Source of the DNA: a virus
Virus record (IMG/VR): IMGVR_UViG_3300042330_000875
Span: 1-64,000 of that record
Length of the DNA stretch: 64,000 bases
Direction: 5' to 3' (one strand)
Positions 4,286 through 56,201 of the stretch are shown here, one piece after another. Numbering within the stretch: position 1 is the first letter of the stretch; each line of letters begins with the position of its first letter. Made by a program: the position numbers and the translations under genes. The notes beneath the pieces were generated by a model that saw only the letters and a program-made list of their open reading frames with translations, was not told the origin of the DNA and did no database searches.

Positions 4286-4352
4286 AAATATATTTAACAA
4301 AATTAAATATAATACATTTAATATTAATTAATAAATTTAATTTATTAAAACA

Positions 4353-19371: not shown

Positions 19372-20000
19372 CGATAACCAATTTTCATAAATCTAATATA
19401 ATTTTCTGTTTTCATTTCATTTAAAAATAAAGTTTTTTCGCAAGAATACATTCGATCAAATTCTTCTAAATCTTTATTACAATTTACGTGTTCAGGATAT
19501 TGAAATGCATCATTTGATTGGATTATAAATGCAGTATTTTTTTCTAAATTGTTCCACCATTTTTTTCCATCAAGGTGTTCACAAATTGTATTAATAATTA
19601 AGGTTGGTTTTTCAGTTAATTCAACTTCAGTATTATCGTTTCTTAAAACCTTAAAATTAATATAAGCACCTGTAATATTCATTATATCAATTTTAGAACT
19701 TTGAAATTTCCAATTGTTGGAAAGAAATCTTCGATTTAAATCTTTTGCTATTTCATTTGATTGATTGTCTAAATCAAAACTTCTAATTTTTTTCACTAAA
19801 TTTTCATTTAATAACAACCAAGATAAAATTCCTACCCATCCACCTAAAACAAAAACTGTTTCAGTATTAAATTCTTTTGGGAAGTTATCTATAATCCATT
19901 GTTTACTCTGTAATTGGCCTCTTGATAAAGCATCTTCCCAAGAAAAATTAGGATGTTTTTCTTGTGTTTTTATTAAGTCGGCTAAAAATTCATAATTCAT
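19368..20000 (-). CDS. Class I SAM-dependent methyltransferase-like protein
   Basis: The 210-residue protein shows a Rossmann methyltransferase pattern: VFVLGGWVGILSWLLL (motif I region, glycine-rich), FDLDNQSNEIA (acidic end of strand 2), and later LIINTICEHLDG. It should bind S-adenosylmethionine; the target is unknown. The start follows TTTTAAATATTTAAA directly, so a leaderless transcript is likely. Confidence 0.7.
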   Translation of the reverse strand: MNYEFLADLIKTQEKHPNFSWEDALSRGQLQSKQWIIDNFPKEFNTETVFVLGGWVGILSWLLLNENLVKKIRSFDLDNQSNEIAKDLNRRFLSNNWKFQSSKIDIMNITGAYINFKVLRNDNTEVELTEKPTLIINTICEHLDGKKWWNNLEKNTAFIIQSNDAFQYPEHVNCNKDLEEFDRMYSCEKTLFLNEMKTENYIRFMKIGYR

Positions 20001-22196: not shown

Positions 22197-22228
22197 AAAG
22201 TAGAAAACAATTAATTGTTTTCTACTTT
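22197..22228. terminator. Bidirectional terminator between convergent transcripts
   Basis: A perfect hairpin (AAAGTAGAAAACAATT and complement) lies between the exonuclease gene and the end of the biosynthetic cluster. It covers the last codons of the radical SAM gene at 22222. Confidence 0.8.
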
Positions 22229-23394
22229 GATTTAGGAATTTTAGAATCAGCACTTGAAACACAACTTTTACTTATGCATTTTGTTGGTTGATCAAATATT
22301 TTAAATCCATTTACTAAATCTCCTAATGGTTGATCAGCACAACTATAGCCGCGTTTAACAATTCCATTTGGTTCACGAATAATAATACTTTGATAACCAG
22401 AATTACAATTCCAATTTTCAAAATTATTAAAATTAAAACTGTTCATACGTTCAGCTTGATCAAGATACCATTTTTTGTTTTCTTCATCGGTTAATTCTAC
22501 TTGCATTATTTGTGGAATTTTTTCTTGATTTTCTAAAACATCTTGTAATTTTTTATATTTTGGACGGGTTGGAATTTTATTATTTTTATCTAATGCTTGT
22601 TGTGTAAAGTCTCGTTGTGGCATACCATTATAAAGACGATTTAACATGTCTTGTGAATATCCATCAACAATCTTTGTAGCATTATAATTGCTTTGTGGTT
22701 TTAATGTTGTATTAATCCCCAATTCATGAAAATAAAGTGCATTTTCCCAATCGAATTCAAATAAATCAGGACGCATAACCATATTAATTGTTACTTGTAT
22801 ATCATTTTCTTGACAATATAATAATTTTTCAATAAATTTTTCTTTTTTAGCAAATTCAGAATGAAAACTAGCTGTAATACTTACACGATGTAAATTTTTA
22901 GTTACTTCAACATATTCTTTTAACCATTTTAAATTTTTACTCATATTAGTTGTCATATGCACACTTTGATAATTTGTTTTTTCCAAATGAGTTGTATAAT
23001 GATTTAAAATTTTTAAATAATCTGGATGTGCAGTAGGTTCACCACCAGAAAAACTAAAATGAAATGAATTAAAATTGTTTTCATTAGCTTGATAGATAAT
23101 TTCATCAATTGTTTTTGTAATTACATCTAATGGTCGAAAATCTTTAATGTGTGTACTGGCGTAGCCCCAGCAGTAGGAGCAATGGGCATTTTCATATTTT
23201 TTCCCATTTACTTCAATAATTTTTTTAGATTTTTCATCAGGTTTTTTTAAAAAATTAAAATTGCAATATCTTTGCAAAATCCAACTGACATTGAATAGAT
23301 CACGCTCTAACATAGTGCGTTGACCAAATGATTTTATCTTATCAAAGGGAATTTTAGTAAAGTCATATTGTGACCATTTTAAATTATCGTTCAT
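22222..23394 (-). CDS. Radical SAM / SPASM enzyme with split cysteine motif
   Basis: The 390-residue protein has a GGEP motif (FSFSGGEPTAHP) and a C-terminal SPASM-like cysteine set (WNCNSGYQS, YSCADQPLGD, KCISKSC). The cluster-binding cysteines are spaced C44-x27-C72-x2-C75: a normal RYCNFN start is followed by a 24-residue Lys-rich insert and then HCSYCWGY. It lacks the CxLPW N-terminus of the other four radical SAM proteins here and is a different subfamily. It is the last gene of the cluster. The start follows TAAATATTATTT with no Shine-Dalgarno sequence. Confidence 0.85.
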   Translation of the reverse strand: MNDNLKWSQYDFTKIPFDKIKSFGQRTMLERDLFNVSWILQRYCNFNFLKKPDEKSKKIIEVNGKKYENAHCSYCWGYASTHIKDFRPLDVITKTIDEIIYQANENNFNSFHFSFSGGEPTAHPDYLKILNHYTTHLEKTNYQSVHMTTNMSKNLKWLKEYVEVTKNLHRVSITASFHSEFAKKEKFIEKLLYCQENDIQVTINMVMRPDLFEFDWENALYFHELGINTTLKPQSNYNATKIVDGYSQDMLNRLYNGMPQRDFTQQALDKNNKIPTRPKYKKLQDVLENQEKIPQIMQVELTDEENKKWYLDQAERMNSFNFNNFENWNCNSGYQSIIIREPNGIVKRGYSCADQPLGDLVNGFKIFDQPTKCISKSCVSSADSKIPKSK

Positions 23395-23408
23395 AAATAA
23401 TATTTAGT

Positions 23409-24470
23409 TTAACTTTTAAATAATTTTGTCAATTTAAAAAAGTCTTGTTTTCTCAATTGATCTAATTTATTGTTGTTTTCTAAAAAATTATTCCAATTTC
23501 CTTCTTTGATATTCAACAAATATTTTTTTATTTTATCAAATTGATTTTCAGAATAATAATCAATTAAATATTGTTTTTTATCAAATGAAATATGTTTTAA
23601 GTTTAAATAATCAGGATGTTCTAAAATATTCCAATAAATTTCACGATCACACCAATTATCTAATTCTTTTAAAAATTCGATATTGGTTATTTGAACTGTG
23701 CAGTGAATTTTTATTTCAGCTTTAAGTTGTTTTATAGTTTCATAATTTTTTAAAAATTGATTCCATTTTGCAGGATAACGAATATACTCATAAACATTTT
23801 CAATTCCATCAACCGACAAATGTAATTTTAAATTAGAAAATTTTTCCCATAATTTTAAAACTTTATCAGGTAATACAGTTAAATTTGTATTGTACTTTAA
23901 TTCTATATTAGTTTTGTTATTATCGATCAACCATTGTAATATATCAATATGATGAGGGTTCAATAAAGGTTCTCCACCTGTAAAATAAATTGCTTCAATA
24001 AATTGTAAATTATTTTTTAATTGAACAAAAAATTCTTGGTTTTTATCCCAATTGTAAAGTTTAGTTTGTTCATTCCACATTTTTTGATGATCTTCTTGCC
24101 AAGCAGAACTAGAATAGCCATTACACATTCTACAACGTAAATTACAACTATTACCTAATCTTAAATCTAAATAAACAATTTCTGTTTTTTCATTGTTTTT
24201 TATTTTTTTTAAATGAACAGAAAATTTTTCATTATAAGCTAATCTTGCACTTTTTAAACCAAAACTTTCTTCATTAAAACATCGTTTACAAACTGTTGGT
24301 TTTTTATTTTCCAACATTTCATTTTTAATTGATTTAAGGTAATTTTCTTTGTATTCTTCTATTTGATCAAAGCGATAATTTGAAGATGATTGTGCATTAC
24401 AGCAAACACGTAATTTTCCTGTTGGAGTAGTTGCTAAATGAATCCAAGGTAAAACACATAAATTATTCAT
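23409..24470 (-). CDS. Radical SAM protein (twitch/SPASM-like N-terminus)
   Basis: The 353-residue protein has Cx3Cx2C at C109, C113 and C116 (LGNSCNLRCRMC), YFTGGEPLLNPHH, and an N-terminal cysteine group (C5, C23, C24, C61, C64). It shares the CVLPWIHLATTPTGK start with the 195 gene and is probably its closest paralog here. Its start overlaps the upstream radical SAM gene by 8 bp. The substrate is unknown. Confidence 0.88.
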   Translation of the reverse strand: MNNLCVLPWIHLATTPTGKLRVCCNAQSSSNYRFDQIEEYKENYLKSIKNEMLENKKPTVCKRCFNEESFGLKSARLAYNEKFSVHLKKIKNNEKTEIVYLDLRLGNSCNLRCRMCNGYSSSAWQEDHQKMWNEQTKLYNWDKNQEFFVQLKNNLQFIEAIYFTGGEPLLNPHHIDILQWLIDNNKTNIELKYNTNLTVLPDKVLKLWEKFSNLKLHLSVDGIENVYEYIRYPAKWNQFLKNYETIKQLKAEIKIHCTVQITNIEFLKELDNWCDREIYWNILEHPDYLNLKHISFDKKQYLIDYYSENQFDKIKKYLLNIKEGNWNNFLENNNKLDQLRKQDFFKLTKLFKS

Positions 24471-25533
24471 CGATCCAACCTACTATTTCTTTGTCGATAA
24501 CATCTTTATAATTTAAATTTCTAGTTGTATTAAAATAGTTTAAAGCAAATTTTAATTGTTCTTTATCAAATTTATTTTCTTGTTGAATAAAATTAACTAA
24601 TTCATCGTATTGATTGTGATTTTTTAATAATTGTAATTTGTTTAAAATGTATTCTTTTTTATCAGTTATATTGGCTTGGAAATATTCAGGCTTTCTTAAT
24701 ATCTCAAAATTTATTGGGATATTAAAATATTCATTTATTTTACCTAATTCACAAATATTAAAAAGCTGTACTGTACAATTAATCAATTGTTTTATATGTT
24801 GAAATTGTTGTAATTTAATTAAATTTTCTTCTATAATAGAAAATTTCAAAGGATAACGAATATATTTAAAAACATTATCTAAACCATCAATTGAGATTTT
24901 TATTTTGGCTTTGAGTTTATCAGTTAAATCAAAAAATTCTTCATCCCAAACAGATAAATTTGTTACAATATTTAATTGTGGGCTTAAATTATTTTCAACT
25001 AAATGTTGTAATACTTTTTTATTATTAATATCTAATAAAGGTTCGCCACCTCGCAAATTAATTCTTTTTGCATTTTTTAAAAAAGGTTTAACTATATCAA
25101 AATTTAATTCTGATTTTAAATTTTTGCCTTTATAATGAATTGGTACATTTTTATTTTTAACCTCTGATGCTATTGCCGAAGAACAACGTGGCGTACACAT
25201 AATACATTTACTGTTACAAATATTAGAAAAATTTAAATCTAAAATTTCTGCTTGATCAAAAAATTCAGTTAATTTGTTTGGTAAAATAAATTGTTCATTT
25301 ACAGTTAATCTTAAAGATTTTTTTCCTAATTCTTCATCTTTTTCACAACGCAAACAATTTTTTGGAAATTTATTATTAATAAAATCATTTCTAATTTGTT
25401 TCATAATTTCAGAATTATGGCGATTTTCAATGGGAATATTTTCAAAAGGCATATTTATTACAAAACCACACGGTACAAACGTGCCATCTGAATGAAAACC
25501 ATAACTTTTCCAAGGCATTACACATTTAACCAT
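24463..25533 (-). CDS. Radical SAM protein (twitch/SPASM-like N-terminus)
   Basis: About 356 residues from ATG 25533 (MVKCVMPWKSYGFHSDG). The motif cysteines are C106, C110 and C113 (SNICNSKCIMC), with LRGGEPLLDI downstream and extra cysteines C4, C22, C60 and C63. It overlaps the sulfotransferase gene upstream and the next radical SAM gene downstream, so it sits in the middle of a coupled operon. Confidence 0.87.
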   Translation of the reverse strand: MVKCVMPWKSYGFHSDGTFVPCGFVINMPFENIPIENRHNSEIMKQIRNDFINNKFPKNCLRCEKDEELGKKSLRLTVNEQFILPNKLTEFFDQAEILDLNFSNICNSKCIMCTPRCSSAIASEVKNKNVPIHYKGKNLKSELNFDIVKPFLKNAKRINLRGGEPLLDINNKKVLQHLVENNLSPQLNIVTNLSVWDEEFFDLTDKLKAKIKISIDGLDNVFKYIRYPLKFSIIEENLIKLQQFQHIKQLINCTVQLFNICELGKINEYFNIPINFEILRKPEYFQANITDKKEYILNKLQLLKNHNQYDELVNFIQQENKFDKEQLKFALNYFNTTRNLNYKDVIDKEIVGWIDE

Positions 25534-26311
25534 TATCAATCCAATCTAAAACTTCATTCCAATTTAAAATTATTTTATTTACATTATCAAAAGAGTAAGG
25601 ATTTTTTCTTACAAAACCTTCATGATTAAAAGAACTTTTTTCAAAAATTGTTTCACCAATTTCATGTGGTAATTTATTTACAATTGAATTATATTCAATA
25701 TTTTTATAAATTGAAAATTTATCTTTTGTTTGAATAAAAATTTCATATCGTTTTTTTATTTTATCAACTGTATTTTTATCTAAATTAAATGGTTCGGGTA
25801 ATTGATACTCTAATCCATTTAACAAATGAGTTGGATTATTTGAAAACCAAGAAATTGCATAACTTGCTATAATTTCTTTTAAATCACGATGTAAAACAAT
25901 TGCTTGATAATTTTCTTTCAAATACTCAAAATCATCATCGGGAATTAAATGATGACTTAAAATTTTTAAAAAATAATGTTGATGTTTGTATTTTTCTAAA
26001 ATTGTTTTAACTTTATAATCGTTTTTTAATAAAATATGATTTTTATTTATTAAATCTTCTTGGCAAGTAATATAAACTTCATTGGGAATTTTTCTTGTTC
26101 CTGGCGAATGTCTTACTTGAACTAAATTTTCATTTGTATCAACTAACCAGGGACATTCATTTTTATTTTGATTGAATAACTCAGTTGGAGTTACACCAAA
26201 ACTACAACTTGTTTTTGTTGCTAAATTATTATAAAATAAATAAAGTTGTAAACTACGATGTAATAAAAAACTTCCACTTCTACCACAAGAATAAACAAAA
26301 TACTTTTTCAT
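25526..26311 (-). CDS. Sulfotransferase-like protein
   Basis: The 261-residue protein starts MKKYFVYSCGRSGSFLLHRS, which fits the 5'-phosphosulfate-binding loop of PAPS sulfotransferases (RSGS). The later AIVLHRDLKEIIASYAISWF fits the 3'-phosphate-binding motif (R......S). It should move sulfate from PAPS to a hydroxyl or amine. It is inside the biosynthetic operon next to radical SAM and PLP genes. A PAPS source may be the fusion enzyme at 5406. Confidence 0.75.
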   Translation of the reverse strand: MKKYFVYSCGRSGSFLLHRSLQLYLFYNNLATKTSCSFGVTPTELFNQNKNECPWLVDTNENLVQVRHSPGTRKIPNEVYITCQEDLINKNHILLKNDYKVKTILEKYKHQHYFLKILSHHLIPDDDFEYLKENYQAIVLHRDLKEIIASYAISWFSNNPTHLLNGLEYQLPEPFNLDKNTVDKIKKRYEIFIQTKDKFSIYKNIEYNSIVNKLPHEIGETIFEKSSFNHEGFVRKNPYSFDNVNKIILNWNEVLDWIDNG

Positions 26312-26318
26312 TATCTAT

Positions 26319-27152
26319 TTACTTTTTCAAATAAGTCAATAAAGCTCTAGTACCAATTAGTTTATTTTCAAAAATTGCACTATGAATACAATTTGTTTTT
26401 GTTAAATTAAAATCAAAACAAAGTTTTTCATATTCTTCTCGATAATAGTTCCATAAAAAATTATCACCTAATGTTTCTATATAATGTAATGCCATAGCAG
26501 AATTAGTTTTATCAATCATATCATAAGCGTTCATTATACCAATACTTGTATTAGTTAAATCATTTTTAGATAAAATAACTCCAATTCTATTATTCATCAT
26601 ATCAAAAGATTTACTTAAACTAAAACCAATTTGTTTTATTTGACAATGACTTAAATCTAAAGTTAATTGTTCGCTACAACCCAACCAACAAGCATCAATA
26701 TAAATATCAATATTTCTTTCCGAACATATTTGTGAAATATCATTCCAATTATTGGGTAAAGATGATGTGCATGTATTTGGTATGCTAATTATTAAAGGTA
26801 TATTATTTTTTAGTTCTAATAATCCAACAGAATTATTGCCTAATTTTTGATGATATGAATATTCACCATGTAAAACTTGTATTTTATTTGATTGATAACA
26901 ATTATTAATAAAACCAGTACAGCCATTGGTTAAGTAATTATAATTAAAATTTTCTAATCCATATATATTATTATTTTTTGTAACATATTCGATAATTTTA
27001 CTTTTTATTATTGATTGAAATTTTTTATCAGTTATTATTGATCGATATTTTTTTATGTCAAAAGAAAAATACGTATCATAAAAAATCTTATTCCAAATTG
27101 GTTTTGGGGTTGGTAATAAAAATTCTTTATTATAATATGGTGCAGTTTTCAT
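26319..27152 (-). CDS. Short fold-type I PLP-dependent enzyme (aminotransferase-like)
   Basis: From ATG 27152, behind an AAGGA site, the product is 277 residues. IDACWLGC (D153, the pyridine-nitrogen Asp) and SLSKSFDMM (K181, Schiff-base Lys) are the class I/II aminotransferase signatures. LHGEYSYHQ near residue 95 is shared with the 31155 product (FVGEYSYYQ). At 277 residues it is over 100 shorter than usual, lacking most of the C-terminal domain. It overlaps the radical SAM gene upstream. Confidence 0.72.
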   Translation of the reverse strand: MKTAPYYNKEFLLPTPKPIWNKIFYDTYFSFDIKKYRSIITDKKFQSIIKSKIIEYVTKNNNIYGLENFNYNYLTNGCTGFINNCYQSNKIQVLHGEYSYHQKLGNNSVGLLELKNNIPLIISIPNTCTSSLPNNWNDISQICSERNIDIYIDACWLGCSEQLTLDLSHCQIKQIGFSLSKSFDMMNNRIGVILSKNDLTNTSIGIMNAYDMIDKTNSAMALHYIETLGDNFLWNYYREEYEKLCFDFNLTKTNCIHSAIFENKLIGTRALLTYLKK

Positions 27153-28176
27153 TAGCATTCCTTAAAATATTATCAATTGCAATTGGACTTATATCTTTAA
27201 ATTTTTTTCCTGTTTTAGTAAACCATAAATTTTCATAAACTATTAATTGTTTTTTATCAATATCAGAGATATTGATGTTATCAATTAATAAATTGTCGAT
27301 TATTATTTTTGTTTTTTCTGGTAAATCAATTTCATTTAAAATATCTTTTGTTAATAAATTACAATTTAAAAAATTAGGATTTCTTAATATATGAAAGTAC
27401 CAAGGTATATTTAAATTTAAAAAATAATCTTCAATTGATTTTAAATGCTCTAAATTTAACCATTGAACAGTTGTTTGAGTTCTTACGTCTGATATTTTTT
27501 TAAATTCTTGTAAGTTTTTTTCTAAGGTTTTCCAATCAGTTCCTAATCGAATATATTCTGCAATATGTCCTATTCCATCCACACTAACATTTATTTTTAT
27601 ATTTGAAAATTTTGATAATATTTGCCATATTTTTTTATTAAAAACACTTCCATTGGTTAAAAATTCTATTTCACAGGATAAATTATCGATTGATATTAAT
27701 TTTTCTAAAATATCAATAACTTTATTTTCTAAAAATGGTTCACCTCCTGCAAAACTAATAAATTTAGCATCGTGTAAATTATTCAAATAATCATAATTTT
27801 TAATAACTTTATTATGTTTTTGTTTTAATTCCTTTTCCCATTTATTACTTGCGCTTGGCCCACACATAATGCATTGAAAATTACAATGATTAGATAATTT
27901 AAAATCAAACGTTTGATAAATTTTATGATCTTTTTTAGCATCTTCAAATGAATATAAATTTCTGTTTAATTCTAAAATTCTTCTTGATTTTTTTCCTATT
28001 TTTTCATCATTATAACATCTTTTACATTCTGCGCTTTGCAAGTCATTTAACATATTATTTTTTATTTTTTTTAAAACATCATCATTGACGATTGCATCAG
28101 AATGGGCGCATAATCTTTGAGTATTATCAGTTTGGATATAAAAATGATTCCAAGGAACAGGACAAAAAGTTTTCAT
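27130..28176 (-). CDS. Radical SAM protein (twitch/SPASM-like N-terminus)
   Basis: The 348-residue protein has motif cysteines C98, C102 and C105 (NHCNFQCIMC), FAGGEPFLENK, and N-terminal cysteines C5, C23, C51 and C54 (FCPVPWNHFY start). It overlaps the gene at 28173 by 4 bp and the PLP gene by 23 bp. It lies in the second of two blocks that each contain an oxygenase, an amidinotransferase and a PLP gene. Confidence 0.88.
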   Translation of the reverse strand: MKTFCPVPWNHFYIQTDNTQRLCAHSDAIVNDDVLKKIKNNMLNDLQSAECKRCYNDEKIGKKSRRILELNRNLYSFEDAKKDHKIYQTFDFKLSNHCNFQCIMCGPSASNKWEKELKQKHNKVIKNYDYLNNLHDAKFISFAGGEPFLENKVIDILEKLISIDNLSCEIEFLTNGSVFNKKIWQILSKFSNIKINVSVDGIGHIAEYIRLGTDWKTLEKNLQEFKKISDVRTQTTVQWLNLEHLKSIEDYFLNLNIPWYFHILRNPNFLNCNLLTKDILNEIDLPEKTKIIIDNLLIDNINISDIDKKQLIVYENLWFTKTGKKFKDISPIAIDNILRNANENCTIL

Positions 28177-28574
28177 TTTTTCATTATTTCATTAAAGTAA
28201 TTTTCGGGCCAATTGTTATAATAAACTGTTTTTTTTAATATATTTCTTTTAATTTCCATATCTTTTCTGTTTTGTATAAAAATACAATTGGTAAAATTTT
28301 TAACAAAAAGTCCAGATGTTGGTGTTGATTTTAAAACGATCCAATCATCATTAAATTTTAAAGTTAAAAATGTTAATAAAATATTATCAATTTTATTATC
28401 ACACCAAACGACATAAATTTTATCATTATCTGTAAAATTAAAATTATCAGTTGGTAATAAAAAATCAATTTTATTATTTATTCTAGCTGATTGGGCATAA
28501 GGACAAATATTTTTCTTTTCGATATTTGCTATTGACCATTCAATAAATTGTTTTTTAAATTCATCAAATTTCAT
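28173..28574 (-). CDS. Hypothetical cluster protein with NICPYAQSAR motif
   Basis: A 133-residue protein without a recognised domain. NICPYAQSARINNKID near residue 22 looks like a conserved Cys-Pro element, and IYVVWCDNKIDN supplies a second cysteine. It overlaps both neighbours by 4 bp, so it is a bona fide operon member, perhaps a carrier or partner of the flanking radical SAM and amidinotransferase. Confidence 0.6.
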   Translation of the reverse strand: MKFDEFKKQFIEWSIANIEKKNICPYAQSARINNKIDFLLPTDNFNFTDNDKIYVVWCDNKIDNILLTFLTLKFNDDWIVLKSTPTSGLFVKNFTNCIFIQNRKDMEIKRNILKKTVYYNNWPENYFNEIMKK

Positions 28575-29584
28575 AAATAATTTTCCATTTCACCAACTCT
28601 AGCAATATCTTGAGTACAACAATGAATGCCGCCATCCCAAAAATATTGATGTTTAAAATTCCATATTATAGGATTTACTTTAAATTTTTCTAATTGATCA
28701 AATACTTTTTTATTAAAATGCGTAAAAATAATATTATTTTCATCAATACTTAAAGCATTAACATCAAAAACAGTTTCATCCACATAACCAACCCAATCTT
28801 TTAACCATTTTTGAATAAAATCACCATAAAAATGTTGTTTTCTTAATGATAAAAATTCATTTGGTAATGGATTAAATTCTTCAATTAAAATAACATCCCA
28901 ATTTTTTAATTGTTCAGGAATCCAATCTTTATTCCAAGTAATCAATAATCCTGGTTTAACTAAACAAATTTTTCCATCAATATGTCCGCCAATAGGAAAA
29001 TCAACAAATTCACAATCGTAAAATTTGGGTAATATGTTTTTAATCCATTCTTTTCCTTTTAAATTTCCTTTGCCATTTTTTTCATCTTCTTCTATTGATT
29101 GGGATATTAAAATATGTTTACCTAGTTTAATCATATTAGCAGCATCAAAATATAATTCTACATTTTTATTTTTTTCTATTTTAGGTTGTGGCATAGATAA
29201 ATTAACAAAATCATCGATCCAATTTTTTTTATAACTTAAATGTTCAAATTGACGATTATCATGTTTAGTAAACATATCAATTGCTAAATTACCATAAACA
29301 AATAAAACATCTCTTGGCATCAAAGGTGGACTCATAAACTTATAATCATTCCAAGGTAAAGAAATATTTTCTTCAAAATTATCTACTAAAATATCAGGGC
29401 GAATAACTTCAATATCAAATGTTTTTAGTAATTTTTCTAATTCATTTAATTGTTCATTTGTTTCATGTAATATAATTTGTATGCTATTTTTAAATTCTTG
29501 ATTTTTATGATAATCAAAAATCTTTTGGTCATATGTTTTACCTACAATAATTTTTTTTAATTTTTGAAACTCAGTAAAAGTCAT
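28571..29584 (-). CDS. Amidinotransferase (arginine:glycine amidinotransferase family) 1
   Basis: The 337-residue protein has the three catalytic elements of the GATM/StrB family: Asp in FDAAN (D147), His-x-Asp in GGHIDG (H201, D203), and Cys in GGIHCCTQ (C322). These enzymes move the amidino group of arginine to an amine, making a guanidine compound. A second copy is at 31152. The enzyme is overlapped by the oxygenase gene upstream and the gene at 28173 downstream. Confidence 0.85.
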   Translation of the reverse strand: MTFTEFQKLKKIIVGKTYDQKIFDYHKNQEFKNSIQIILHETNEQLNELEKLLKTFDIEVIRPDILVDNFEENISLPWNDYKFMSPPLMPRDVLFVYGNLAIDMFTKHDNRQFEHLSYKKNWIDDFVNLSMPQPKIEKNKNVELYFDAANMIKLGKHILISQSIEEDEKNGKGNLKGKEWIKNILPKFYDCEFVDFPIGGHIDGKICLVKPGLLITWNKDWIPEQLKNWDVILIEEFNPLPNEFLSLRKQHFYGDFIQKWLKDWVGYVDETVFDVNALSIDENNIIFTHFNKKVFDQLEKFKVNPIIWNFKHQYFWDGGIHCCTQDIARVGEMENYL

Positions 29585-30351
29585 TCGATTTCCTCATAAA
29601 GAGTAAACGCCAATCCACATTTTGTTTTAGTATTATTTTTTCTATGATCAGCACTACAATGAATTTGTGTTGGATCAATAACCATAATTGAACCAATTTT
29701 CCAAGGCAATATTTTTTCTATATGTAAATCAGTTAAATTTTCTTTTGGAAGAAATGAAAGATATTCATCGTATATTTTTTGATCTTGCCAATTATTTTCT
29801 TTATTATATTTTCTTGATCCTTTTTCTAAATCATAAAATTCTATATCATCATGAGAATAAACATCTTTCCAATAACCTTTTACGCTATCTTTTTTAAATC
29901 CTTGACAAAAAATAGTACCATAATTTAAAACTCGTTCACGAAAGCAAATTAATCCAGAATGTAAGTCTTCATTTTTACTTGGGGTTACAAATAAAGGTAT
30001 GACAAAATGTTTTAAAGGTATTAATTTATGATCAAATATTGATGATTCTTCTTCGCTCATACTGTCTGCGTGTAAAGCATAAGGATGTAAAGTTAAATAA
30101 AAATTTCCACCATAATGTTTTTTTGAGAAATCTTTATTTATTAATCTTTTAAACCTATCAGAAAATTTATCAGCAATAATAGTATGTTTATTTTTAATTT
30201 TAAACAACATTGTGCCACTTTCTTTTATTGTTGTTGATGAATGCTCTCGCCACATAAAATCAATCATCCAAGAAATTTCTTCTTTAGAGAAAAAATCATC
30301 AACTTGAAAACATTCACTTAAATTTGTTTTCCATTTATCAAAATTAGTCAT
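29581..30351 (-). CDS. Fe(II)/2-oxoglutarate-type dioxygenase 1
   Basis: The 256-residue protein has HPYALHADSM (H94-x-D96), a long beta-strand region, and IHCSADHRKNN near residue 231, giving a plausible His-Asp-His iron site. TVH: no signal peptide is present. It would hydroxylate a small molecule or side chain. Its start follows TTTAAATATTTAC directly, so it begins a transcript at a leaderless-type promoter inside the cluster. Confidence 0.65.
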   Translation of the reverse strand: MTNFDKWKTNLSECFQVDDFFSKEEISWMIDFMWREHSSTTIKESGTMLFKIKNKHTIIADKFSDRFKRLINKDFSKKHYGGNFYLTLHPYALHADSMSEEESSIFDHKLIPLKHFVIPLFVTPSKNEDLHSGLICFRERVLNYGTIFCQGFKKDSVKGYWKDVYSHDDIEFYDLEKGSRKYNKENNWQDQKIYDEYLSFLPKENLTDLHIEKILPWKIGSIMVIDPTQIHCSADHRKNNTKTKCGLAFTLYEEIE

Positions 30352-30384
30352 GTAAATATTTAAATGAAAACCGATTTAATGATT

Positions 30385-31155
30385 TTAGTATAAACTAGAT
30401 AAACAAATTCTTGAATATTCGTTTCCACGATTAAATTGTTTAAACTTACCAAAGCTGTATCCTAAAATAACACTATCACTTGGTATTATTTTTAATTTAT
30501 CACAAATAGAAATTTGTTTAATTCTATATTTTTCATATAACGTATCTATATTATTATGTATAATATAATTATAAGCTATATTCATTCCTAGAAACGGTAA
30601 ATGATTATTTTGATTTAATAATTCAATAGGATCATCATCATATTTTTTAGTAAATCTAATACCACATCTATATTGAAAAACCGGAATTATTTTATGCATA
30701 GAATGCGCTATAACATCAATACAATTGTTATTTGGTATTTTTATCTTTTTTGTTGTGCCATAATAAGCCAAATCTAAAAAAACTTTAATATCGTTTACAT
30801 CACAATAATTTAATATTTCATCAATATTTTGAAAGCATCCGTTATCACAAAACGGAAAACTAATAGCTAAAATTCCTTCTTTTATTTCTTTAAAATTTTT
30901 TATAAAATTAATATTCATATTTAAAAATTTTGCCACATTTTGATAATATGAATATTCACCAACAAATAAATTCAAGGTTTTTGTTTTATTTTTCATTAAC
31001 CAAACATCAATTGATTGTGTTATTCCTGTTGTTATATTAATTTGATCAAAATCATTTATACCTAAAAATTTTTGATATTTTAATTTATAATCATTTGATA
31101 ATATAAATGAATTAGTTATTTTATTAAAAATTGGTTTTATTTGTTTTAAACTCAT
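30385..31155 (-). CDS. Short fold-type I PLP-dependent enzyme 2
   Basis: From ATG 31155, which overlaps the upstream stop as ATGA, the product is 256 residues. FLDLAYYGTT (D128) and AHSMHKIIPV (K155) are the cofactor-binding Asp and Lys. GEYSYYQN near residue 66 matches the other PLP protein. Like it, the protein is truncated relative to normal aminotransferases. The pair probably arose by duplication within the cluster. Confidence 0.68.
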   Translation of the reverse strand: MSLKQIKPIFNKITNSFILSNDYKLKYQKFLGINDFDQINITTGITQSIDVWLMKNKTKTLNLFVGEYSYYQNVAKFLNMNINFIKNFKEIKEGILAISFPFCDNGCFQNIDEILNYCDVNDIKVFLDLAYYGTTKKIKIPNNNCIDVIAHSMHKIIPVFQYRCGIRFTKKYDDDPIELLNQNNHLPFLGMNIAYNYIIHNNIDTLYEKYRIKQISICDKLKIIPSDSVILGYSFGKFKQFNRGNEYSRICLSSLY

Positions 31156-32165
31156 TTTCTTTTTAAATCCAAAGTAATACAATGTGGACCACCACCCAAT
31201 GTCCTACAATGTGTTAGTTTAATTGGTATGCAATCAAAATTGTGGTTTTTTAATAATTTCATTAAAGGTTTTTGTGTTTCTTCTACTATAATAGTTCGTT
31301 CATCAATACTTAATATATTCATAGCCATCCAAATACTACTATTACCAAAGTCTTGATGTATTTGAGTAGGGATCGGTTCATCGAAATAAATACAATTCCA
31401 ATTTTTGAAAAATTCCGGCAGGTTATGTTTATTAACTCTTGAAGAATTTAATAAAATTGTATTATCATTTAATGGAACAAAAGTTGTATCAACATGCATG
31501 TAAGAATAAAAATTTTCTAAAATATGTAGTTTATAATTTTTTGGTATATTTCTTTTTAACCATTCTGCGCCTTTTAAATTTCCAGTATTGCTTACTAAAT
31601 AAAATATATTATTATCTACTTTAAAAATATTTGCGGCATCAAATAAAATTTCTTCATTTGTTAATGTTGGTATTTTTAAATCATTTAATTGATAATTTTT
31701 ATCTAATAATTTTTGCTTTGGGGCGCTGATCCAGTTAAACCCTTCTTGAAATTTTTCTTCAAAAATTTCAAATAAAGAGAAATTCTCAAAATATCTTGAT
31801 CGTAACACATTTGGTGATTCAATTATAGTATTTTCTATTACTAATGCTGTGTCTCTTGGGCAATAAGAAAAATATTGTTCAGTTTTCCAAAAGCTATTAC
31901 TAATTTTATTTTTATTAATTGGTTTACTTCTATATGTTTTTATATTATGCGACCTTAATAATTCTTCAAATTTTTCTAAATCATCGAATGTTTCATCAAT
32001 AATATTTTTAGGATATTGACCTAATTTCAATTTTTTAAATTCATTATTTGATAAATTAGCATATTCGATACTATGCATAGATTTATCTTTTGTATTAGGT
32101 TTAATAGCATTTATAATATTACCTATTATAACTTCTTGTAATGTTGAATATTCGTTTTTAATCAT
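31152..32165 (-). CDS. Amidinotransferase (arginine:glycine amidinotransferase family) 2
   Basis: The 337-residue protein contains FDAANI (D176), YMHVDTTFVPL (H224, D226) and GGGPHCITLD (C329), the catalytic Asp, His-Asp and Cys of GATM-type enzymes. HVDTTFVPL is especially close to the animal and bacterial enzymes. It differs considerably from copy 1, so the two may act on different amines, as StrB1 and StrB2 do in streptomycin assembly. It overlaps both neighbours by 4 bp. Confidence 0.87.
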   Translation of the reverse strand: MIKNEYSTLQEVIIGNIINAIKPNTKDKSMHSIEYANLSNNEFKKLKLGQYPKNIIDETFDDLEKFEELLRSHNIKTYRSKPINKNKISNSFWKTEQYFSYCPRDTALVIENTIIESPNVLRSRYFENFSLFEIFEEKFQEGFNWISAPKQKLLDKNYQLNDLKIPTLTNEEILFDAANIFKVDNNIFYLVSNTGNLKGAEWLKRNIPKNYKLHILENFYSYMHVDTTFVPLNDNTILLNSSRVNKHNLPEFFKNWNCIYFDEPIPTQIHQDFGNSSIWMAMNILSIDERTIIVEETQKPLMKLLKNHNFDCIPIKLTHCRTLGGGPHCITLDLKRK

Positions 32166-32755
32166 TTATAGATGCTCTTTCTTGGTATTACATTTTCAGT
32201 ATCAGACGTATAATATATAAATCTCAATGCTTCTGCATTATTAGAATTTTTACTAACTGAATGCCAAGAATTTTCAGTATTTTCAAATATAACAAAATTA
32301 TTTTTAATCCAATCGTATGTAACTTTATTATTATCATTTTCTAAAATTAATTGACAATCGCTATTATTTAAAAAATAAATTCCAGTTAAAAATCTTTTTA
32401 AACCTAGATAGCTATTAATTGTATAATCTATATGTGCTTCAACCATATGATTTTCAGGTATTCGCATAAAACCCCCGCCCCAAAAATTCATATCAACAAT
32501 TATTCCTTTTTTATTAAAATAATTTTCTAATTTTTTTATAAATTTATGATTATAAAAATAATTTACGGGTATATTAGTAATATTTTCATCTAAATCATAA
32601 ATCCAAGTATACTCGTGTAATAATGTGTTTTTATTTTGATAAATTTTGCATTCTTTTTCTGTTAATTTATTAAAATAAATTTCTAATGTATTTGTAATTT
32701 CATTAGAAAAAACATTTGTTAATAATAAATGATTATAAGGTTTATTTTTAAACAT
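32162..32755 (-). CDS. Fe(II)/2-oxoglutarate-type dioxygenase 2
   Basis: The 197-residue protein carries EAHIDYT (H108, D110) and SWHSVSKN (H165) with R178 in ALRFIYY, the His-Asp-His iron site and 2-oxoglutarate Arg of prolyl-4-hydroxylase-type enzymes. It is the first gene of the minus-strand operon. Its ATG is only 12 bp from the divergent sulfotransferase ATG. Confidence 0.75.
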   Translation of the reverse strand: MFKNKPYNHLLLTNVFSNEITNTLEIYFNKLTEKECKIYQNKNTLLHEYTWIYDLDENITNIPVNYFYNHKFIKKLENYFNKKGIIVDMNFWGGGFMRIPENHMVEAHIDYTINSYLGLKRFLTGIYFLNNSDCQLILENDNNKVTYDWIKNNFVIFENTENSWHSVSKNSNNAEALRFIYYTSDTENVIPRKSIYK

Positions 32756-32767
32756 ATAAATATTTAT
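32756..32767. promoter_or_regulatory. 12-bp palindromic divergent promoter (probable late, leaderless)
   Basis: The entire space between the two divergent start codons is ATAAATATTTAT, a perfect palindrome. Each strand reads TATAAATA if the adjacent start-codon base is included, identical to the T4 late promoter -10 box. There is no room for a ribosome site on either side, so both mRNAs would be leaderless or nearly so. Confidence 0.6.
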
Positions 32768-33409
32768 ATGAAAATATTATTATTATCTTCTGAAAGAAGT
32801 GGAAGTACCGCATTTCAAGAATTTTTAGCTAATAAAAATAATATTAAAAATTATTTAGAACCTTTTGAAAATACTCAAAATAAAAGATTTACAAAAAGTA
32901 ATGAATATTCAATAATTAATGCTATAAATATATTATGTAACGATAATAATTATATTATAAAAATACAAATGAATCAAATGAATGATAATAAAATAAAATT
33001 TATAATTAATGAGTTACAAATTGATAATATAATAGTATTATTGAGAAAAAATTTTATTGAACAATGTTTAAGTAATCAATTATCAAATTATACGGATAAA
33101 TGGCACAATTCAGATTTAAAACCAAAAGATAACATAATACATCATGAAATGATAAAAAATAAAACATTTAAGGCAAATGAAAAATATTTTATAAATCAAG
33201 AAACTTACAATAAAAGATTATTAAATTGGGGGTTAAAAAATCCTATTTATTTTCATGAAGATAATATTGTTAATTTTAATTGTACACGTTATAAAAAATT
33301 AAATAACAATATTATCACTAATTTTACTAATCAAAATGAAATATTTCATTTTAATACTAATTATAATGTTAGTTTGAGAAAATATTTAAATGAAAATTTA
33401 TATTATTAA
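32768..33409 (+). CDS. Sulfotransferase-like protein (Stf0-like)
   Basis: From ATG 32768 the product is 213 residues. LLLSSERSGSTAFQEFL is a standard PAPS-binding loop, and IIVLLRKNFIEQCLSNQLS is the 3'-phosphate motif with Arg and Ser. It starts the plus-strand arm of the cluster and overlaps the next gene by 20 bp. The acceptor is unknown; sugar hydroxyls are plausible given the glycosyltransferase-like genes that follow. Confidence 0.78.
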   Translation: MKILLLSSERSGSTAFQEFLANKNNIKNYLEPFENTQNKRFTKSNEYSIINAINILCNDNNYIIKIQMNQMNDNKIKFIINELQIDNIIVLLRKNFIEQCLSNQLSNYTDKWHNSDLKPKDNIIHHEMIKNKTFKANEKYFINQETYNKRLLNWGLKNPIYFHEDNIVNFNCTRYKKLNNNIITNFTNQNEIFHFNTNYNVSLRKYLNENLYY

Positions 33410-34430
33410 AGAACCAACAGAAAATGATTTTTTTTATATAGAAGATTTAATTTCTTATTTTAATTTAGAAATAGTCGAAGATATTAAACAAGCAGATATT
33501 TTGTTTTTTCAACCTTATTATGATTATGGTAATTATAATAATGCACATACGATTTAATCGTATGTGCATTATTATAAACCTATTGTTTATTTTGATATTT
33601 GTGATTATAGCCCATTATATGAAAATAAAGAACTATTTAATTTTTTAAAAGAAAACAATATAAAATTAGTAACCTTTGATAAAGAAAATATTAAAATTAT
33701 AAATGATGAATTTATAATGAATTATTGGGAATTAAAAAGTTATCTAACAACATTAACAATAAAAAATGAAATTAATAAAAGATTTTTATGTTTAAATCGC
33801 AGGATTCATGAATTTAGAAATACATTAATTGGTGAATTATATAATCAAAATTTATTAGATAATTTTTTATTAGGTTTTGGGCGCGAACGATCAGGTAAAA
33901 AACAACATTTTGATTATAATAATTTAAAATATATAACAAATAACAATTATAAAAATTTTGAAAAACAATTACCAATTATATTACAAAACAAAGTTAACAA
34001 TTTAACTGTTGAAGATATATTTTTATTAAAACAAGATTTGTTCTCTAAAACCCAAATGAGTATAGTAACAGAAACAAACTTTAATTTTCCCATTTTAACA
34101 GAAAAAACATATTTAGAATTAAGTAATAATCGACCTTTTATAATAGCTGGCGGCGCTTATTCATTAAAAAAATTACACAATAAAGGTTTCAAAACTTTTT
34201 CTTTATTATGGGATGAAAATTATGATTTAATAGAAGATCATACAAAAAGGTTAAATGCTATCGTAGAAGTAATTAGATTTCTAAATAATTTAGATAGTAA
34301 AGAGTTTAATAATATTATTGAGAAATCAAAAATAATATCAGAATATAATAAACAAATATGTAATGAAATTTTACAAAAAACTAAAAATAACTTTAATCAA
34401 TATATTAGGAATATAAATGAAAATATTTGA
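33390..34430 (+). pseudogene. Glycosyltransferase-like gene split by an in-frame stop in a palindrome
   Basis: From ATG 33390 the frame reads MKIYIIKEPTENDFFYIEDL, meets TAA at 33555, then continues in the same frame to 34430 (HYYKPIVYFDICDYS and onward). The second part has SIVTETNFNFPILTEKTYLE and NNRPFIIAGG, resembling the donor-site region of fucosyltransferase-type (GT10-like) enzymes. The protein at 34417 shows the same organisation without a break. A GTG at 33564 could restart a 288-residue product, and read-through or bypassing is also possible. Overlaps with both neighbours suggest the full frame was one gene. Confidence 0.6.
33533..33577. repeat. Perfect 45-bp palindrome (22-bp arms, 1-bp centre)
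   Basis: Left arm 33533-33554 (TTATAATAATGCACATACGATT is its sequence in two parts: TTATAATAAT and GCACATACGATT) is exactly complementary to 33556-33577. The central T (33555) is the first base of the in-frame TAA. A 27-base segment, 33543-33569, looks like extra sequence relative to a continuous reading YNN-YYKP. Confidence 0.85.
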
Positions 34431-35397
34431 TCCAAACTATAAAAATAATATTGAAATAAAAAATAATTGGAATTGGTATGGATTACTTGGTTTAAAAAGA
34501 TTAATTCCTGAAATAGAAATAACTGAAAATATCGAACAAGCAGATTTTGTTTGGATTGAAAACTCACCTAATAAAAGAGTTAGTAAAAGAAAAGATTTTC
34601 CTGTTTATTCAAATAAAACACATATTTTAAATGCAGGTTTAGAATATGAAAATACTAAATATGATTTACCAAAAAATTATATTGTGTTTGATTGTAATGA
34701 AAAAAACAATCAAATAGATTTTAACTTATGTAAATTAACAAGTTGGTTAGATGGTCAATTAGTCACAGGAAATAAAGAAATAAAATTTAATTTTGGATTT
34801 CGTCGCCCTGATATTCATAGAAACTCATTGGAAAAATTAATAAATAATTTTTCTGTTTATCATTATCGTTGTGAAATTCCCGAAAAAATAAACGATGATA
34901 TTTTTTTAAATTCAAAATATGCCGATTTATTTCAAGAAAATATATCGGATAATATCTTTACAGATATTGCTGGTGTTCACAATCAAGTTCCTGAATCTTT
35001 TGTTAACATGTATAAAGAAACAAATATATCAATTGTAATGGAAACAATGTTTTGGCATGATTTATGCTTTGATAGTGAAAAAGTTCATCGAGAGTTAGCT
35101 TGTGGAATGATACCAATTATTTTTGGACCTATTGGTATTGTTGAAAAATTAAAAAATCAAGGATTTATTTTTCCTGAACATTTATGGGATCATAGTTATG
35201 ATAAGATTATTGATCCATTAAAACGATTTGATTTTCTCGTTGACCAATTATTTGAAATAGAAAAAACATCTAATAGAGAATTTGATTTATGGAAAAAAGA
35301 ATTTGAAATAATTGGTTTTAAAAATCATCAAACAGCTAAACGGAATTTAAAAAATGATATTGATAATCTTAGAAAAATTTTTCATAATTTTCTGTAA
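34417..35397 (+). CDS. Glycosyltransferase-like protein
   Basis: A 326-residue paralog in layout of the split gene before it. NIEQADFVWIENSP matches DIKQADILFFQP. The donor region reads ISIVMETMFWHDLCFDSEKVHREL, then CGMIPIIFGP and HLWDHSYDKI, resembling GT10-type enzymes (acidic residue, E-K, then G.IP...G). It would attach a sugar in the cluster pathway. It overlaps the upstream frame by 14 bp and the convergent gene at 35369. Confidence 0.5.
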   Translation: MKIFDPNYKNNIEIKNNWNWYGLLGLKRLIPEIEITENIEQADFVWIENSPNKRVSKRKDFPVYSNKTHILNAGLEYENTKYDLPKNYIVFDCNEKNNQIDFNLCKLTSWLDGQLVTGNKEIKFNFGFRRPDIHRNSLEKLINNFSVYHYRCEIPEKINDDIFLNSKYADLFQENISDNIFTDIAGVHNQVPESFVNMYKETNISIVMETMFWHDLCFDSEKVHRELACGMIPIIFGPIGIVEKLKNQGFIFPEHLWDHSYDKIIDPLKRFDFLVDQLFEIEKTSNREFDLWKKEFEIIGFKNHQTAKRNLKNDIDNLRKIFHNFL

Positions 35398-36904: not shown

Positions 36905-37213
36905 TTAGCTCCATTTTAAAATCATTTCTACTTGAAAAGCGTTATCTTGAATTGGGTGATCTTTTAACCAATCATGGACATTATCATATATTTTGTTATT
37001 TAAACAAAAAGAATATTTCTCATTGGGCCAAATAACTGCTGGTCCAGTTAATCGATGCCAAATATAATCTTTTTCACACCAAACTTTATGACTGCTTTCT
37101 AAATCTTCAAAAGCAGGTGTATTTTCATCAGGTGAAGAAATTTCATATAATGGCATATCATTAGGATCATCAGTAGTAAATTTTTCACCATTTACATAAT
37201 AACGGTATGTCAT
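36905..37213 (-). CDS. HRLTGPA-family small protein (type A), copy 6
   Basis: A 102-residue copy: YYVNGEKFTTDD, SSPDENTPAFE, WCEKDYIWHRLTGPAVIWP, ending EMILKWS. It lies between dNMP kinase and the Pth2-like gene in one operon, overlapping the latter by 4 bp. It is embedded among core-metabolism genes. Confidence 0.8.
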   Translation of the reverse strand: MTYRYYVNGEKFTTDDPNDMPLYEISSPDENTPAFEDLESSHKVWCEKDYIWHRLTGPAVIWPNEKYSFCLNNKIYDNVHDWLKDHPIQDNAFQVEMILKWS

Positions 37214-52623: not shown

Positions 52624-52651
52624 AAAAAGGCGGGAAATTTCCCGCCTTTTT
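52624..52651 (-). terminator. Rho-independent terminator (GGCGGG type)
   Basis: AAAAAGGCGGGAAA and its complement, touching the stop codon of the family gene at 52651. It has the same core as the terminator at 50665. Confidence 0.88.
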
Positions 52652-52959: not shown

Positions 52960-53002
52960 AATTCATTCTCCTTTGTTCGGTTGCGTCATTCCCGCCTTTT
53001 GT

Positions 53003-56173: not shown

Positions 56174-56201
56174 AAATTGGGGAATTTAATTCCCCAATTT
56201 T
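56173..56201 (+). terminator. Rho-independent terminator after gp32
   Basis: AAAATTGGGGAATT and its complement, touching the gp32 stop codon, with a short T-rich tail. It probably reduces read-through into uvsX. Confidence 0.78.

Follow-up and report, generated by a model that had tools for sequence, protein, structure and literature searches.

Timms et al. described clusters of several radical SAM (rSAM) genes and one amidinotransferase (AT) gene in the Campylobacter phages CP220 and CPt10, beside genes annotated with nucleotide-diphospho-sugar transferase domains, and already called the rSAM and AT genes an interchangeable module (PMC2853527). In the relevant passages they suggested a fitness gain for the infected cells, and a glycan is not named there. 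In the Synechococcus phage S-SCSM2R, an island at about 228-236 kb (PQ898602.1) contains an AT annotated as inosamine amidinotransferase together with 2OG oxygenases, an rSAM gene, a PLP enzyme (compact DegT) and several glycosyltransferases (GT). In streptidine biosynthesis, a part of the streptomycin pathway, the amidinotransferase StrB1 works after an aminotransferase. As for phage glycans, glycans on capsid and tail tube proteins of mycobacteriophages have been reported (Freeman et al. 2023, as cited in PMC12619734), and the citing passage mentions no guanidine or radical chemistry.

In the present study, we analyzed a 64,000-nucleotide stretch (hereafter, the window; positions 1 to 64,000 of the IMG/VR record IMGVR_UViG_3300042330_000875) of a tailed phage, in which a 13-kb set of enzyme genes lies at 22222-35397. 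The AT of CP220 is 30% identical to the second AT of the window (AT2) over the full length, but CP220 has no match to our PLP, DegT or GT models, whereas the window has two AT, two PLP, two 2OG and one additional gene, U. The AT of S-SCSM2R is 34% identical, but its aminotransferase is DegT rather than the PLP family of the window, and no match to the GT family model of the window was found. Compared with the streptidine system, the AT family and the catalytic residues are shared, but no DegT match was found in the own record, and rSAM and 2OG enzymes accompany the AT of the window. An exchangeable rSAM and AT module was reported in Campylobacter phages in 2010; the partnership with aminotransferases and GT is what the present analysis adds.

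Enzyme families encoded at the locus

The preliminary description, made from sequence alone, listed fifteen mostly overlapping genes for four rSAM proteins, two PLP enzymes, two GATM-type amidinotransferases, two Fe/2OG-type oxygenases, two sulfotransferases, two GT-like proteins and one unknown, with catalytic residues visible in nearly all. This observation was confirmed, in that all 15 ORFs exist, although the sulfotransferase calls rest on motifs only. They form two divergent blocks, 12 genes on the minus strand (22222-32755) and 3 on the plus strand (32729-35397), and 10 of the 14 neighbouring pairs overlap. Pfam gave none of the AT, PLP, GT or sulfotransferase-like proteins of the window a match over a cut-off.

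All four rSAM proteins exceed the cut-off of PF04055. rSAM1 (22222-23394, minus; 390 aa; 43.6 bits) does not have the CX3CX2C motif but a 27-residue spacer inside it (C44-x27-C72-x2-C75), although its 54% identical relative, the last gene of the cluster at locus L096 (see below), has a normal motif (CNYRCSYC). The other three have CX3CX2C. rSAM2 (23409-24470, minus; 353 aa; CNLRCRMC) is an N-terminal-twitch rSAM protein, which scored 320 bits against the curated cut-off of 170 in NF033640 (it was the only rSAM protein of the window compared with NCBIfam). rSAM3 (24463-25539, minus; 358 aa; CNSKCIMC) is of twitch/SPASM type, with PF04055 and PF13186 over cut-off, and rSAM4 (27130-28176, minus; 348 aa; CNFQCIMC) is of twitch type, with 46.9 bits in PF04055. 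A profile of the twitch rSAM proteins hit the peptide maturases SkfB (best, E 7.3e-16) and YydG, and reached BtrN (E 6.7e-9) and cytosylglucuronate decarboxylase (E 1.7e-8). BtrN is an inosamine dehydrogenase of butirosin biosynthesis.

The two AT, AT1 (28571-29584, minus; 337 aa) and AT2 (31152-32165, minus; 337 aa), have no Pfam or NCBIfam match over cut-off, but match phrog_25854 (E 8.8e-27 and 4.3e-31, respectively). The profile of the AT alignment (A1) hit StrB1 (1bwd, E 4.3e-79, positions 3-342 of 343), HsvA, AGAT and SxtG. The catalytic Asp, His-x-Asp and Cys are invariant, as D176, H224, D226 and C329 for AT2 in A1 and as D147, H201, D203 and C322 for AT1 in a separate alignment. Around the His, AT2 has SYMHVDTT and AT1 has IGGHIDGK, so the two may differ in acceptor.

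The two small PLP proteins, PLP1 (26319-27158, minus; 279 aa) and PLP2 (30385-31182, minus; 265 aa), have no Pfam match on their own, and 6 of 9 family members match Aminotran_1_2 weakly (best E 1.8e-4). A structure model was made for PLP2, not for PLP1. It has a pLDDT of 80 and a predicted fold of type I, the aminotransferase fold (VIA Z 20.8, rmsd 2.9 over 242 residues). Asp for the PLP nitrogen and the Schiff-base Lys are invariant in the alignments of both proteins (D137 and K164 in PLP2). PLP1 lacks the YNRG...NR segment found near the C-terminus of its relatives.

Both 2OG/Fe oxygenases keep the HxD...H metal triad. OX1 (29581-30351, minus; 256 aa) has H94, D96 and H231, judged from an alignment of only two sequences. 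OX2 (32162-32755, minus; 197 aa) has H108, D110, H165 and R178; it is prolyl-4-hydroxylase-like, with E 1.4e-5 in PF13640 (26.4 bits, just under the cut-off of 27) and prolyl hydroxylase hits with its family alignment.

The GT-like pair, GT1 (33564-34430, plus; 288 aa) and GT2 (34417-35397, plus; 326 aa), is probably GT-B but gave no sequence match in the libraries searched, and no Pfam GT match was found in 15 family members. The same frame upstream of GT1 (from 33399) still matches the family but holds one TAA, so the N-terminus of GT1 looks truncated. A structure model of GT2 is GT-B-like, but it is good only in its C-terminal half (pLDDT mostly over 90) and weak in the N-terminal half. Glycosyltransferases head its VIA list at Z 8.0-8.8, including EXT1 (8.8), FUT11 (8.6, tied with other GT), the protein glycosyltransferase SdgB and the T4 beta- and alpha-glucosyltransferases (8.2 and 8.1, tied with the rest), although Z near 8 can be a common arrangement. 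The best Foldseek match in PDB has E 0.028, and viral models named GT10 and fucosyltransferase match at E 0.0022 and 0.0028.

The assignment of the two sulfotransferase-like proteins rests only on motifs. ST1 (25526-26311, minus; 261 aa), a putative P-loop protein, has no match in Pfam, PHROGs, NCBIfam, PADLOC or PDB sequences. ST2 (32729-33409, plus; 226 aa) has only a match to phrog_5843 of unknown function (E 0.002), and none in Pfam or PADLOC. However, Pfam and NCBIfam also missed the AT family, so the absence says little. Neither protein has a relative in the first set of AT loci described below, except in the twin locus L003, or in the 38 loci of the second. U (28173-28574, minus; 133 aa), a protein of unknown function with conserved CP[YF]A and YYxxW, matches phrog_10325, also of unknown function (E 4.7e-6); its relatives were found in 7 of the 38 loci of the second set and in 0 of the 17 of the first.

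Neighbourhoods of amidinotransferase genes in other viruses

AT genes are common in viral contigs, and at least 441 and 508 stretches were confirmed by tblastn in two overlapping scans. We compared 55 viral AT loci (17 in the first set and 38 in the second), in which the AT are under 80% identical. The GT family occurs in 31 loci, a 2OG family in 31, twitch-type rSAM in 28 and PLP in 14, whereas each of nine control genes of the same record occurs in 0 to 5. However, gene content and order vary a lot, and 3 of the 55 loci have no other family and 10 have one.

In rotation controls for genes within 5 kb of AT, 12 of 22 records have PLP (2.1 expected), 18 have GT (5.6 expected), 17 have rSAM (7.8 expected) and 17 have PLP or DegT (3.7 expected). 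With one record per AT cluster (14 records), the values are 7 for PLP (0.9 expected), 10 for PLP or DegT (1.7 expected) and 11 for GT (3.4 expected), each with p 0.0002. Per hit, the test for rSAM is weak (31 of 148 within 5 kb of AT, 20.5 expected, p 0.06), because rSAM genes are spread all over these records. PLP is an immediate neighbour of AT on the same strand in 40 of 82 loci, and UDP-glucose/GDP-mannose dehydrogenase-like genes lie within 7 kb of AT in 15 of 82 loci (redundant loci included in both counts). DegT (PF01041) was found in 14 of 31 AT-bearing records but not in the own record. Compact DegT-like proteins of about 200 aa sit near AT elsewhere, and the three that we read keep the Asp and Lys of the cofactor site. 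The cluster is not a chance mix; its core (AT near aminotransferases, GT and rSAM enzymes) recurs in other, distant phages, and the absence of joint conservation in any relative, which had been named beforehand as a refuting condition, was not observed.

In locus L096 (IMGVR_UViG_3300021959_000022), relatives of PLP, OX1, U, rSAM2 and rSAM1 (24-54% identity; 37% for rSAM2) stand in the same relative order as in the window, and the relative of OX1 lies between PLP and U. The AT of L096 is 41% identical to AT1, and a GT-family gene lies about 10 kb upstream of it. However, L096 has one AT, placed before PLP, whereas in the window AT1 lies between OX1 and U; AT position is not conserved between the two. 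L096 also has one PLP, more rSAM genes, and no ST1 or ST2.

A putative cassette for a guanidine-bearing sugar and alternatives

The best explanation, which we hold with moderate confidence, is that the locus is an exchangeable phage cassette for making and attaching a guanidine-bearing sugar-like residue. In this view, a twitch rSAM enzyme and/or a 2OG oxygenase would oxidise a C-H or C-OH of a sugar or sugar-like acceptor, a compact PLP aminotransferase would turn a resulting carbonyl into an amine, an StrB1-type amidinotransferase would move the amidino group of arginine to that amine, and GT-B glycosyltransferases would link or extend the glycan; the sulfotransferase-like proteins may add sulfate. 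Two AT and two PLP enzymes with different sequences suggest two positions or two acceptors. What the analysis shows is the families, their catalytic residues and their repeated co-location; the activities and acceptors of the enzymes, the order of reactions, the sugar nature of the substrate and the destination of the product on the virion or host surface are inferred, and the product itself has not been seen. In addition, no complete nucleotide-sugar pathway was recognised in the own record, where an epimerase-like ORF (L009:661-1512) was the only candidate seen, by eye, and rSAM and 2OG enzymes also act on proteins.

The preliminary description had inferred that the phage makes or modifies a guanidino-amino compound or glycan, such as a virion decoration, modified nucleotide or anti-host molecule, and had compared the AT and PLP pairs with streptidine assembly. 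This interpretation is partly supported. A phage-borne cluster of enzymes of amination, guanidinylation, hydroxylation, radical chemistry and glycosyl transfer is supported, and the glycan is better supported than modified nucleotides. The streptidine analogy holds for the AT family and, in other phages, for DegT/StrS-type aminotransferases near AT. Sulfation is unproven, and virion decoration could not be told apart from an anti-host molecule.

An alternative possibility, less likely, is that the cassette modifies a protein or peptide (a tail fibre, capsid protein or small precursor peptide), in which rSAM and 2OG enzymes change side chains, the PLP enzyme and AT act on a released or carrier-bound residue, and glycosyl and sulfo groups are added to the protein. 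The hits to SkfB and YydG, the resemblance of OX2 to prolyl hydroxylases, the presence of SdgB among the listed structures and the lack of a recognised complete sugar-nucleotide pathway are consistent with this. However, the solved AT relatives act on small molecules, and DegT-family enzymes, mostly sugar aminotransferases, lie near AT in other phages. A hypermodified DNA base or a sugar on DNA is still less likely. Although phages are known to modify bases with amino and amidine groups (PMC6884629; PMC5567051) and the T4 glucosyltransferases are among the structures listed for GT2, PF00303 (the thymidylate synthase family, which includes the known pyrimidine hydroxymethylases) matched in only 1 of 23 records, which may be fragments, and not in the own one. 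QueC was over cut-off in 3 of the 23 and not in the own one; CP220 is the one strong match, and the other two are at the cut-off.

It is equally unlikely that the genes are separate auxiliary metabolic genes, with the AT, for example, for guanidinoacetate, which lie together only because phages collect such genes in one hypervariable region. A lake virus study lists a glycine amidinotransferase under amino-acid metabolism (PMC8226683), and an ocean survey discusses viral creatine synthesis, there for the methyltransferase GAMT (PMC11360552). The variation between loci and the frequency of rSAM genes throughout the records also fit this view, but the excess of PLP, DegT and GT neighbours over rotation controls, the five-gene order shared with L096 and the adjacency of PLP to AT do not. 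Least likely is a diffusible anti-host or anti-competitor small molecule related to aminoglycosides, for which the closeness of the AT to StrB1 and the reach of the rSAM profile to BtrN may speak. The own record has no DegT match, and inositol, self-resistance and exporter genes were not recognised among the ORFs read by eye (of at least 70 to 150 aa).

A further-reaching possibility, which is tentative, is that phages of several lineages share an exchangeable "guanidino-glycan" cassette, in which compact aminotransferases of two unrelated kinds stand in for each other and hand an amine made on a sugar to the StrB1-type AT, with rSAM dehydrogenases making the ketone. Virions or infected cells would then carry a positively charged, possibly also sulfated, guanidinium sugar not known from viruses. 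If the viral AT genes belong to a sugar-tailoring cassette, their filing under ordinary amino-acid metabolism, as done for such a gene in at least one study, misleads for many of them, and a new kind of phage surface chemistry, with compact aminotransferases and many uncharacterised rSAM enzymes, becomes testable in cultured phages such as S-SCSM2R.

Possibly related genes outside the interval

Three other genes of the window may be related to the cluster. A twitch rSAM protein (rSAM5; 195-1541, minus) has a 49% identical relative in the L096 cluster. A protein encoded at 19368-20000 (minus), methyltransferase-like by eye only and without a Pfam match, has a 35% identical relative in the L096 island and relatives in 4 of the 55 AT loci. 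An APS-kinase-domain protein (5406-6245, minus), with 59 bits in PF01583 (cut-off 21.1) and matches to APS kinases among PDB sequences, might supply PAPS for the sulfotransferase-like proteins, although this is an inference.

Gene content and protein families of the cluster

The IMG/VR virus record, of which the window is the first 64,000 bases, has 146,077 bases and belongs to a tailed phage, since it encodes a tail sheath protein (phrog_11196, E 9.5e-80), a virion structural protein (phrog_11591, E 2e-79) and a phage single-strand-binding protein. The preliminary description of a cluster of fifteen mostly overlapping genes was confirmed at the level of the reading frames, because all 15 ORFs exist. 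Twelve of them run on the minus strand, beginning with the oxygenase gene OX2 and ending with the radical SAM (rSAM) gene rSAM1 at 22222, and three run on the plus strand from 32729 to 35397. Ten of the 14 neighbouring pairs overlap, which fits two divergent operons. Another contig (L003, 96 kb) carries 21,011 bases around the cluster at 100% identity, and this twin was left out of the locus counts.

Although the two amidinotransferases (AT1 and AT2) have no Pfam match over cut-off, a five-sequence profile reaches StrB1 at E 4.3e-79, as well as HsvA, AGAT and SxtG, and the columns of the catalytic Asp, His-x-Asp and Cys are invariant. The radical SAM proteins rSAM2, rSAM3 and rSAM4 have the CX3CX2C motif, and rSAM2 scores 320 bits in NF033640 against a cut-off of 170. 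In contrast, rSAM1 (22222-23394) has C44-x27-C72-x2-C75, with a 27-residue spacer between the first and second cysteine, whereas its 54% relative in the viral locus L096 has the normal spacing and reads CNYRCSYC; thus there is an insertion in the most conserved loop, and it is present also in the identical twin. A tblastn search with rSAM1 gave no match in phage records, and a single-sequence search of viral contigs gave only the twin contig; the relative in L096 came up through the scan for amidinotransferases. The two PLP proteins are compact (265 and 279 aa). A structure model of PLP2 (pLDDT 80) matches aminotransferases at Z 20.8, with an rmsd of 2.9 over 242 residues, and Asp137 and Lys164 are invariant in 27 sequences.

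The glycosyltransferase-like (GT) proteins have no sequence match. The model of GT2 is good only in its C-terminal half, and Foldseek gave nothing better than E 0.028 in PDB. In a second structure comparison glycosyltransferases lead the list (EXT1 Z 8.8 and FUT11 Z 8.6, tied with many others), and viral models named GT10 and fucosyltransferase match at E 0.002-0.003. The reading frame of GT1 continues upstream in homology (33399-33564) but holds one TAA, and thus the gene looks N-terminally truncated. Searches of PDB sequences with the PLP and GT profiles gave nothing at E below 0.1. The two 2OG/Fe-type oxygenases, OX1 and OX2, keep HxD...H. ST1 and ST2 are sulfotransferase-like by motif only; an APS-kinase-domain gene at 5406-6245 could feed them, although this is an inference.

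Recurrence of the gene families around viral amidinotransferases

To determine whether the cluster is more than a chance mix, we compared loci around amidinotransferase (AT) genes in other viruses. Two scans gave at least 441 and at least 508 confirmed stretches, of which the best 80 of each were retrieved. The first set consisted of 79 of the 80 loci (without the twin L003) together with Synechococcus phage S-SCSM2R, Campylobacter phage CP220 and F379, that is, 82 loci in 17 clusters at 80% AT identity. Of these 17 clusters, rSAM was found in 13, GT in 13, a small 2OG family in 11, other rSAM in 7, PLP in 7, OX2 in 4, OX1 in 1 and the protein of unknown function, U, in 0. PLP is an immediate same-strand neighbour of AT in 40 of the 82 loci. 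The second set came from a scan with AT1 in front, which gave 79 new loci with AT, 13 of which were dropped as already seen or twin, and formed 38 further clusters. Scored with models made before this set was fetched, it contained 2OG in 20, GT in 18, rSAM in 15, PLP in 7, U in 7, other rSAM in 7, OX2 in 3 and OX1 in 2, and ST1 and ST2 in none. Of the 55 loci, 3 have none of these families and 10 have one.

Nine control genes of the phage's own record, labelled by eye or from PHROGs matches, were found in 0 to 5 of the 55 loci. However, the family models were iterated three times on the first set and the control genes once on the 55 loci, which flatters the contrast. Furthermore, the 2OG family was picked for its frequency in the first set, so that its count there is not independent, and the group labelled rSAM1-like is a mix of rSAM proteins without the N-terminal twitch rather than a set of rSAM1 orthologues. 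Several clusters of the second set still share the gene order GT, a gene of about 410 aa, 2OG and AT; thus the 55 loci are not fully independent, and some loci are shorter than 10 kb (5 of 38). We also tried other genes of the own record as possible members of the cassette. In the own-record stretch L010, an SGNH-like and a sulfotransferase-like gene were found in 0 of the 55 AT loci, and the gene at L010:5897 in 4; an epimerase-like gene was found in 5, the gene at 19368-20000 of the window in 4, and the rSAM gene at L009:10170, in a further stretch of the record, in 24.

As a whole-record control, the AT positions were rotated in 22 records that we had chosen as long. Within 5 kb of an AT, PLP occurred in 12 records against 2.1 expected, GT in 18 against 5.6, and rSAM in 17 against 7.8, each with p at most 0.0002. 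Counted per hit, the rSAM association is weak (31 of 148, 20.5 expected, p 0.06), since these records hold rSAM genes all along. The single viral records G017 (locus L033) and G010 (locus L085), of 60 and 76 kb, have 18 and 21 radical SAM profile matches. The positions, copied by hand, comprised 30 of 34 AT rows (four split pieces of the same frames dropped), 65 of 66 GT rows (one split piece dropped), all 15 PLP rows, 148 rSAM rows (split pieces of frames in record G001 dropped), which do not cover all rSAM matches, and 14 DegT places on the 22 records, halves of one frame being counted once. Since the 22 records fall in 14 AT clusters, the PLP, DegT and GT tests, but not that of rSAM, were repeated with one record per cluster, which gave PLP in 7 of 14 (0.9 expected) and GT in 11 (3.4).

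Two kinds of aminotransferase were found near AT. Members of the DegT/StrS family occur in 14 of 31 AT-bearing records, but not in the own one. Within 5 kb of an AT, DegT lies in 7 of 22 records (1.8 expected) and PLP or DegT in 17 (3.7); with one record per cluster, the values are 5 and 10 of 14 (0.9 and 1.7 expected). Most DegT matches are in frames of about 200-240 aa that match only the two ends of the family model, and the three that were read keep DAA and the K of the cofactor site. Such compact DegT-like proteins of about 200 aa, matching only both ends of PF01041 yet keeping the cofactor-site residues, lie near amidinotransferases in L174, L176 and L004:17281-17868. That two unrelated aminotransferase types sit by the amidinotransferase is the best hint that it acts on an amine made by the cassette.

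A distant copy was found in locus L096, an 81.6-kb contig, which reads AT (41% to AT1), rSAM, PLP (28% to PLP2), OX1 (24%), U (36%), rSAM2 (37%) and rSAM1 (54%). The window has PLP2, OX1, AT1 and U, then rSAM4, PLP1, ST1, rSAM3, rSAM2 and rSAM1. Thus PLP, OX1, U, rSAM2 and rSAM1 keep their relative order, but AT has another place and the window has extra genes. A GT-family gene lies about 10 kb before the AT of L096. The L096 island also holds relatives of own-record genes that lie outside the interval of the 15 genes, namely rSAM5 at 195-1541 (49%), the gene at 19368-20000 (35%), L010:5897-6742 (31%) and L009:10170-11144 (28%); the pathway may therefore be larger than this interval.

Among the neighbours of the amidinotransferase in CP220, CPT_0082 is not related to the PLP or GT profile and looks GT-A-like by eye, and no assignment was obtained for CPT_0085. 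U matched in Synechococcus phages Sf-FP1 and Sf-CH3 only at E 0.03, and no AT is annotated around it in Sf-FP1, so that these matches were not used. With regard to a cellular origin, the PLP profile gave 2 relatives, 28-29% identical, among 41 pattern matches in genome contigs.

Inferred pathway and alternative readings

BtrN, which the twitch rSAM profile reaches, oxidises an inosamine alcohol to a ketone, aminotransferases turn ketones into amines, and StrB1 moves an amidino group from arginine to an inosamine phosphate. The simplest reading of the cluster is oxidation, amination and guanidinylation of a sugar or cyclitol, followed by linkage by glycosyltransferases. UDP-glucose/GDP-mannose dehydrogenase-like genes, found within 7 kb of AT in 15 of 82 loci (redundant ones included), point to sugars. 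While the families, the conserved residues and the co-location of the genes were established by our analysis, the order of the reactions, the substrate and the destination of the product are inferred. The interpretation in the preliminary description, that the phage makes or modifies a guanidino-amino compound or glycan by enzymes resembling those of streptidine assembly, is partly supported.

A protein target cannot be excluded. Hypermodification of DNA was tested with PF00303 and QueC and became less likely; as evidence against pyrimidine hypermodification, PF00303 matches in 1 of 23 records and not in the own one. The absence of a DegT match in the own record speaks against a streptidine pathway proper. 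A role in defence was dropped, because a PADLOC scan of 10 of the 15 proteins gave only pVip, a radical SAM relative, at E 6e-7 for rSAM1 and CARF6 at E 0.0085 for AT1. The production of creatine or guanidinoacetate remains a rival explanation; PMC8226683 lists a viral glycine amidinotransferase under amino-acid metabolism, and PMC11360552 discusses viral guanidinoacetate methyltransferase as creatine metabolism.

Timms et al. 2010 described in Campylobacter phages CP220 and CPt10 an interchangeable cluster with five rSAM genes and a putative glycine amidinotransferase (PMC2853527). Among the literature entries seen, which included PMC3322345, PMC12619734 and PMC7150976, no other paper describes a phage cluster of rSAM plus amidinotransferase, and none describes a phage cassette combining amidinotransferase, aminotransferase and glycosyltransferase. 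Thus a phage cluster of rSAM and amidinotransferase genes is already known, and the present cluster differs in this combination; a new viral surface chemistry remains a possibility.

Other features of the phage record

A family of repeated proteins of about 100 aa with RLTGPA and DWLKDHPNQ motifs is present in many copies across the record, for example, at 13349-13654, 13720-14031, 17869-18201, 36905-37213, 52651-53311 and 58072-59333 of the window. Two genes contain what looks by eye like an intein, namely that for a RecA-like protein at 56177-57745 of the window and that for a ThyX-like thymidylate synthase at L010:2293-3744. At 2512-4300 of the window, a serine-recombinase-like gene is followed by a TnpB-like gene, an arrangement inside the phage that is IS607-like by eye. 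Furthermore, L008:8898-10685 and L010:11062-12876 encode two related large proteins with, by eye, a glycoside-hydrolase-like front and FYNTKTGTHFYT-like repeats.
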